Below are positions 52,801-55,800 of a stretch of DNA of 64,000 nucleotides, piece by piece. Each line of letters starts with the position of its first letter. Positions within the stretch are counted from its first letter, which is position 1. The position numbers were made by a program, and so were the translations under genes. The notes under the pieces were generated by a model. It did not search any database and had not been told where the DNA came from. It worked only from the letters and a program-made list of their open reading frames with translations. Source of the stretch: Cristatella mucedo (lineage: Eukaryota; Bryozoa; Phylactolaemata; Cristatellidae); assembly GCA_009760855.2 (NCBI GenBank), contig WPIO01000025.1, positions 5,304,001 to 5,368,000 of the forward strand, in the 5' to 3' direction.

Positions 52801-55800
52801 GGAGAGATCTGCGCTCCTTCGTCAGCTTAATGCTGCTGCCGATCTGCTTCTGCAAGGCAAGGCTTGCATCGCCTGCTCACGTGACCAGACAGCTTTCCTT
52901 TGGTATTTTCTGGTCGCTGTGCAATCAAGGGGGGGGGTCGATCGCATGATTAGTCCAGCCTTACTCAAATCTCTAGTGCAAAGGGCCAGAAGCTTCGATG
53001 CAACAGACTTCACTTCACTACCCAGATCGTGGGTTCGACTTCCTCAGCGGCAGTCCTTTGTTTCTGCTGCATGCTGAAACTGTGGCCGAATGGCTGCTAA
53101 AAGCGCTTCCGATGCTATATAAATGAGGCTGTCTGATAAGCTGATCTTTGCTTTACTTCTTACTTTACTCGCAGCATAAACAGAGCCACCTCACAGTGGC
53201 TCACCACCGTGCTGCTTTTTAACACCTGCCGAGCTTTGCATTCATCTTGTCGTGTTGTGCTTCTTCCCACTCCCACGCCGTTATCGTATCCGTCGTTGCA
53301 GTGCGGCTTGACTCAGTGCGAGGGAACTACCGAGTCGACGAGGGAGAGGAGTGCGATGCTGGCATCGTCGGAAATGCATGCTGCGGGTCGAACTTTAAGC
53401 TTATCAAGCCCGCCAGCTGCTGGTAGGCTCGCTCGTTGGCTGCTGCTTGCGTTGTTCGGTTAAATTAAATGGATGCCGCTCTGAAGAGGGGTAGGCGTGG
53501 GCAGGGGGCTGTGGCGCTAGCCCACTGGACTCAGCTGCAGAGCGCATCACCGACCAAGCCGCTGAGCGAGCTGAGGCCGGCGCTATTGGAACCGTGAACT
53601 ATTGGAAATATGCAACTTCTGGGGCATTATGGAAAGCTTGGCAGCATTTATGTTTTTAGCCTTAAACCGAGTTGTCTGTCATTGGCAAGCAAGCGGTGAC
53701 TGCATCCAAGTACATCGAGCTGAGGTTTGCAACACACACACACACAAAGTGGGCTGCTTGACCAGCCTCACTTACATAGTGGCAGTAGAGTGTGTACGGC
53801 TATCACAAGTGCTAGCATTGGGCAATAAAGGATATAAAGTATTGCCCACCACATACTCGAACCCACGGCCTGGGTCGTGATGAGCAAGCATCTGGCAAAG
53901 TACCCGTGAAGCTAAGGCTACCACAGATGCCGTAGCCCCTTGAAGTCGGAAGGCCTAGGCCCCGGAAGAGGCATGTCACCCCCTTCAGCCTGTCCTGTGA
54001 TCAGTCGGCACAAAGCAAAGTCAATGTTCACTCTTTTTTGATTAATCTTTTCTACCTATGCTGCTGGTCTTGGACCATATCAGAATTGACTTACTGTCAT
54101 AGCATCTGTATGCTTGTCATCTTGACAGACCCACTTACCCATAACAGTCGTGCAAGCCATGTGCTCTTTGTTACCAGCTGCCCCAAGCAAGCTATCAAGC
54201 TGGGCCTAGCTAGTAGTAGTGCAGTAGTGTGATCAACAAGGACTAATAATGCGTGCTTTCTTTGGCAGCATCTGCTCGACTCCATCGTGTCTGACATCGG
54301 TCTTGCGGCCATCTCACACAATCAGTCTCTTGTGGCTTCTACTAGCTGTTCATAACCAGCTACCATTTCGCATAATATTTGCTTGGTTGTATTGGGTTGT
54401 GTGCACTCGCTACTGCTGCTTGGTGGCCTGCCCGAGTGGGTCTGTGGATGACCGGCCATGGGCAACCGATGTTCGGGTCACCTACAACGGGAAAGGAAGC
54501 AGATGAGTTTATCCAAAGCTCGGCAGTGATTTTGCTTTTAAATATTCACTGTTGCTAGCTACATATATTGGCCATTCTGTTGCCAATCTGTGCATACATT
54601 ACCTAGATTTTTGGTCCTTAACGAAATCTTCATATCAGTTGACAACTGCACCATTACTGCTGCAAAATCTAATTTTGGATCACAGCTTGTTATATCTTTG
54701 TCGGTAGCAATTCAAAGCATGTTACATGTCATTTTGTTTAAAAAAAGTTCAGTTGAATAGCAACTTCACGATATTTAAGCACCATTACCAAAACAATTGC
54801 TATCTTATAAGCATTGCTTAAAATTATGTTTCACCTTGGTAAGTTTTGATTTCCTTGAAGTTCAGGGCAAGAATACTACTGGATGCTGTAGATAACTAAC
54901 TGTTTACCTGATACTACGTGGGGGCCATCTGGGGGGCACTATAAACTCAGCTAAAAATGGAGCAAATGGTTGCTGTGGGTTGCTTTAACCATCCCTCCGT
55001 AGATTGCTGAAGTCATCCGGCGAATGCCATTGTCAACATTGTTTGATAGTTTGTACAATGTCTTCTTTCAAGAGTCTTCTTCAGGAATACGTGCCACTCT
55101 ATGCTGTTTGCACTGACAAAGCCACAGGATTCGTTCCATCGTGGCACTTCGTCATGCTACTAAAGTCCACATTTTCTTGAGATCATAATATTAAGCAAAA
55201 ACATTTGCTATATTCAAGGGCTTTTCTGATTAGCTTGAGTTCGCGGCAGCTAGTAGCAAGTGCCGTGTAGCCCCTGGGTCTTAGCCCAGGGATAAGGTTC
55301 TCGCTCTGAACAAGCCAGGTCGTGGGTTAGAGTCCTACAGTGGGTAATCCTTTATTGTCCACTGCAAGTGATGATGATAGCCGTTAAGGCCCATCTGCCG
55401 ATATATAAATAGGGCTGTGAAATCAGCTAATTTGTTTGTAGCCTGGAAAAATTAATTTGGAAATTTTATGTAGTTATGCAGCAGCAACTGCATTTGATTT
55501 GCTTTTGGCTTCGTGCAATCAACTAGTTGCTGATAGATTTTAGGCCACTGACCCGAAAACCTGAGATTGCGGGCCTTGGAAGGGCTAGGTCTCTAAATAA
55601 ATAAATACTAGCTGATTTAACAGCCTCTTCTGTGTAGCAACAGAAGAACCTTTACGGCTATCACCACCACTTGCACCAGCTATAAAGAATCACCCACTTC
55701 AGGATTCGAACACATGACCTCGGGACCGAGTTTGTGAAAAGCATCTGCCCTACTTAGTGTGCCATCACGGCTGTAGACGTTTGTTGAATTTGCAAGATTC

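Follow-up and report, generated by a model that had tools for sequence, protein, structure and literature searches.

The ADAM17 gene of the bryozoan Cristatella mucedo contained in this window (the whole 64-kb stretch of DNA that was analysed) probably encodes a functional ortholog from which one structural bond of the disintegrin domain, the C478-C506 disulfide, has been lost, a reading to which we assign a probability of about 0.72. Both bonding partners would thus have been replaced in a gene that still seems to be under constraint, and from the sequence this coordinated double loss appears genuine, though it is a modest departure from a familiar protein.

Judged by its sequence, the locus is an ADAM17 gene that is largely complete, with a reading frame that stays open from a furin-like site to the transmembrane helix. 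Matches of human ADAM17 in tblastn place the exons on the + strand between about 21.8 kb and 63.5 kb of the window, and from these matches, together with splice motifs, we built a 13-exon model by hand, with the exon ends also chosen by hand (Table 1). The model spans 34135-63494 (+) and comprises 518 codons without a stop, where every exon is preceded by AG and followed by GT and all phases agree. It is identical to human ADAM17 at 200 of 463 aligned residues (43%). In a search of the PDB, ADAM17 is the best family (E 4e-101), while ADAM10 (PDB 6be6, 6bdz) comes next with a much weaker match (E 5.8e-41). The order of domains from catalytic to transmembrane is that of human ADAM17 (PDB 8snl, 9o58), as is the zinc site HExGHNxGxxHD, which is split here across exons 5 and 6, and the Met-turn is also present. 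Matches to domain families are mixed: Pfam PF16698 (ADAM17_MPD) scores 33.3 bits on the exon 11 ORF (cutoff 26.2) and 24.4 bits, under that cutoff, on the spliced model, while Pfam Disintegrin stays under its cutoff both on the whole model (29.5 bits, cutoff 35.1) and on the exon 9 ORF (15.8 bits). At E 0.1 the PDB holds no match for the exon 9 ORF, and the exon 11 ORF on its own gives no significant one, with designed TPR proteins as the best hit (E 0.045) and ADAM17 at E 0.16.

Table 1. Coordinates in the window of the ADAM17 exons and of the codons and segments discussed in the text
Feature	Position	Strand	Basis or remark
Probable prodomain exon (RKFHLYL..GHVAG), ends approximate	21803..21936	+	human tblastn E 0.025
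Possible prodomain exon, ends not set	31621..31725	+	tblastn E 0.013, unverified Drosophila query
Probable prodomain exon, ends not set	33566..33688	+	tblastn E 6e-6 with the unverified Drosophila query; human E 0.037
Exon 1, RKRS furin-like site and first part of catalytic domain	34135..34253	+	tblastn, model
Exon 2, catalytic domain	34411..34497	+	tblastn, model
Exon 3, catalytic domain (AWDV)	39519..39602	+	pattern match, not tblastn
Exon 4, catalytic domain (C333, C365)	42840..42990	+	tblastn, model
Exon 5, ends in HELG of zinc site	47085..47207	+	tblastn, model
Exon 6, HNWGSEHD and Met-turn	50227..50342	+	tblastn; its ORF matches Reprolysin_5 (28.7 bits, cutoff 27)
Exon 7, C453 and C469	50504..50573	+	tblastn, model
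Exon 8, linker end and Ds half of disintegrin domain	53302..53422	+	phmmer, tblastn, splice sites
Arg codon CGA at human Cys478 position	53319..53321	+	two substitutions from TGT/TGC
Phe codon TTT at human Cys506 position	53394..53396	+	one substitution from TGT
TG of split codon TG|T (T at 56381), predicted new Cys at human Ser515 position	53421..53422	+	splice phase
Exon 9, Da half of disintegrin domain	56381..56548	+	tblastn, model
Exon 10, start of membrane-proximal region	56710..56825	+	acceptor ending 56709, model
Exon 11, membrane-proximal domain	58734..58966	+	ADAM17_MPD on its ORF
In-frame 105-base stretch, 35-residue insert with two extra Cys or unrecognised short intron	58804..58908	+	one of many GT..AG pairs in exon 11
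Exon 12, C641 and juxtamembrane stalk	60764..60842	+	tblastn, model
Exon 13, transmembrane helix	63406..63494	+	tblastn, model

Upstream of the model, the prodomain is represented by three candidate exons. A cysteine-switch exon was not recognised, including in the interval 33690-34134, which separates the furin-like site from the nearest prodomain match. Remains of a non-LTR retrotransposon, with endonuclease and reverse transcriptase domains, lie inside the gene, at 22701-25450 between the prodomain exons.

The two replaced cysteines both lie in exon 8, which corresponds to human ADAM17 R473-C514 (8snl numbering; phmmer best E 0.00057, tblastn E 2.9e-4). The exon is flanked by splice motifs in the DNA (..ttgcag / gtaggc..), where the GT at 53423 is the donor that fits the end of the human match. 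Its identity to human (20/41, 49%) ranks third among the 13 model exons, which range from 32 to 54%, and Pfam finds no family match in exon 8 alone (40 residues). The first-pass annotation of this DNA had reported that the cysteine of the VCGN motif is read as Arg and that of the CC motif as Phe, and the codons, read directly and aligned to human, agree: CGA stands at the position of Cys478, and TTT at that of Cys506, the last cysteine of CCNSDC. The GEECD and CC motifs are both present, as it had also said. Its description of the alignment as gap-free does not hold, as the Ds loop between GEECD (GIV) and CC is three residues shorter than in human ADAM17, with the two replaced sites anchored on either side.

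That C478 and C506 bond to one another is reached by deduction. According to one published account, the ADAM17 D and C domains contain 13 disulfides (PMC12184519), and since there are 26 cysteines in these domains, every one of them should be bonded. For the Ds of ADAM proteins, two reviews describe three internal disulfides and one Ds-Da link (PMC4885070, PMC3153164), and the ADAM disulfide pattern is given in another paper as AE BC DJ F GI HM L KN, where F and L are bonded to a cysteine of another domain (PMC8678471). Elimination from these published patterns, rather than coordinates, supports C478 and C506 as mutual partners in canonical ADAMs, in keeping with the pairing proposed at first pass. 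Placed by us on the ADAM10 sequence, the letter F presumably corresponds to the C506 equivalent, which leaves the VCGN cysteine, if counted in Ds, as the sole free Ds partner, so that the two would pair. This pairing agrees with the ADAM10 pair 460-495 annotated in UniProt. A search of one review (PMC4885070) for Cys425 and Cys454 (VAP1 numbering) gave no match. Human ADAM17 is without the B and C cysteines and already falls one short of the three disulfides found in the Ds of other ADAMs, so that losing C478-C506 leaves a single bond inside Ds. By deduction, what remains in the present protein is this intra-Ds bond (C489-C502) and the Ds-Da bond (C501-C525).

The rest of the cysteine framework is largely intact. 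The human ectodomain from C225 to C641 contains 32 cysteines, 26 of these from C478 on, and 30 of the 32 have a counterpart in the model, with C478 and C506 the only ones that do not; the conserved Ds/Da cysteines are to that extent incomplete. When human ADAM17 is aligned with the window sequence, 29 cysteine columns are identical and C573 lies one column off. Retention of C573 depends on the exon 10 acceptor listed in Table 1, as an in-phase acceptor further down would drop this residue. On the assumption that C478 and C506 pair and that all cysteines are lost at equal rates, the chance that two random losses among the 32 are partners is 1/31. With the chosen acceptor, exon 10 also carries, at 56714-56773, a segment rich in Ala and Ser with an NST glycosylation motif, which makes the distance from the C573 to the C578 equivalent 16 residues longer than in human.

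Cysteines are predicted to be gained as well as lost. One would occupy the position of S515, where the phase between exons 8 and 9 yields a Cys codon over the junction, and two more lie in the 105-base stretch of exon 11. Exon 11 read without this stretch is about the length of its human equivalent, and because the stretch is possibly an intron, its two cysteines, and with them the membrane-proximal insert relative to human ADAM17, are doubtful. If Cys515 is real, the number of cysteines in the D and C domains is odd, at 27, or 25 if 58804-58908 is an intron, and the change that the model predicts therefore goes beyond the simple loss of one pair. The first-pass claim that only these two cysteines had been lost thus stands for those shared with human, while the additional Cys515 and the acceptor-dependent C573 qualify it.

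The odd cysteine number, the unrecognised cysteine-switch exon and the 43% identity to human would all suit a decaying paralog, on which constraint is fading while a canonical ADAM17 is located elsewhere in the genome. We consider this unlikely, as the 518 codons are free of stops and frameshifts and have their splice sites, the zinc site, 30 of the 32 cysteines and the known iRhom-contact residues are kept, and none of the 13 exons occurs a second time in the 64-kb window at blastn E <= 1e-3. A bond that was exchanged rather than lost would account for the odd count in another way, with the predicted Cys515, set beside C514 by the splice phase, engaged in a new pairing or in an intermolecular bond; in bitistatin, the Ds cysteines are known to pair in alternative ways (PMC8678471). 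This exchange depends on one splice junction, and no partner for Cys515 was identified, which makes it improbable. Redox regulation is known for the membrane-proximal domain of ADAM17, and it is conceivable, if very doubtful, that in this lineage the Ds arm was remodelled at its iRhom contact and that such control has spread to the Ds, where an unpaired cysteine beside C514, with the bond gone, could provide thiol-dependent control or a dimer link.

The loss is known from one genomic sequence, and a rare allele or a mistake in sequencing or assembly could lie behind either codon or both. Since two substitutions separate CGA from every Cys codon, a simple sequencing error is unlikely, and the whole explanation is highly improbable, as it needs three changes that hit precisely two cysteines which are probably partners and that leave the reading frame open. 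The least credible alternative is that exon 8 is skipped and another, canonical Ds exon is spliced in. Nothing was found in its favour, as nowhere else in the 64-kb window is the Ds matched convincingly (the runner-up in tblastn has E 0.08) and the phases of exon 8 fit those of exons 7 and 9.

Loss of the C478-C506 bond from a working ADAM17 is consistent with what is known of cysteine mutations in the human enzyme. PMA-stimulated shedding is lost with either of the substitutions C567R and C600Y (PMC8100128), and lone cysteine losses can therefore be harmful, which fits the loss of both partners rather than one. It may be that replacement of the first cysteine left its free partner a liability, which was then replaced too. 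The Ds arm could tolerate the missing bond if the flanking bonds, packing on the catalytic domain and the iRhom contact hold it in place, and the likely effect would be an arm that is locally less rigid, with shedding activity preserved.

Known iRhom-contact residues are retained. Equivalents of G479 and N480 are kept, the latter lying two residues from C478, and in human ADAM17 the substitution N480E, at iRhom2 contact site 1, did away with stimulated shedding while the protein still matured and bound iRhom2 (PMC12184519). In the transmembrane helix, the alignment shows that the equivalents of the iRhom-contacting residues V673, S680 and S688 are likewise retained. If our reading is correct, this protein is a natural ADAM17 without the bond near N480 and, as such, would test the need for Ds rigidity in iRhom-controlled shedding. 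With a single sequence in hand, a statement at the level of the lineage needs orthologs first. The membrane-proximal basic patch, R625/K626/K628 in human ADAM17, reads R, E and T here (58925-58936), so that only R625 remains.

Among known systems, ADAM10 presumably has one more bond in Ds and retains that of VCGN-CKL, unlike the present protein. Snake venom disintegrins are described as having evolved by the selective loss of bonded cysteine pairs (PMC8678471); these are short, secreted proteins, whereas the loss here lies inside a membrane protease. The Kaouthiagin-like SVMP is on record as departing from the conserved disulfide pattern of the D domain; it misses 17 residues where Ds and Da meet (PMC4885070), in contrast to the two point replacements that remove one bond here. 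The titles and abstract openings of the literature matches listed report no loss of the C478/C506 type in ADAM17, which is not proof of its absence in print.

In a search of genome contigs, 408 places matched the pattern and 25 loci were confirmed, all of them under prokaryote titles, with animal ADAM17 not among them. In viral contigs nothing was confirmed for either the Ds exon (119 pattern matches) or the ectodomain (64 pattern matches). The 25 prokaryote loci, 14 of which carry titles naming myxobacterial groups, contain CGDG..DEGEECDDG..C..C repeats, a four-cysteine motif that resembles the ADAM Ds core. Across 19 of these loci, a cysteine stands at the VCGN-like place as well as the C506-like one in 75 of 77 scored repeat copies, and two copies have the downstream one only, one of these with its upstream cysteine just outside the scored stretch; the counts come from a motif and filter of our own (79 copies under a looser count) and serve as background only, with no homology to the ADAM Ds implied. 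In the DNA under study, Rfam gave no match and no tRNA was found. At 1-309, on the - strand, lies a TPR-containing ORF (TPR_1 33.5 bits, cutoff 27.8), which may resemble SPAG1.
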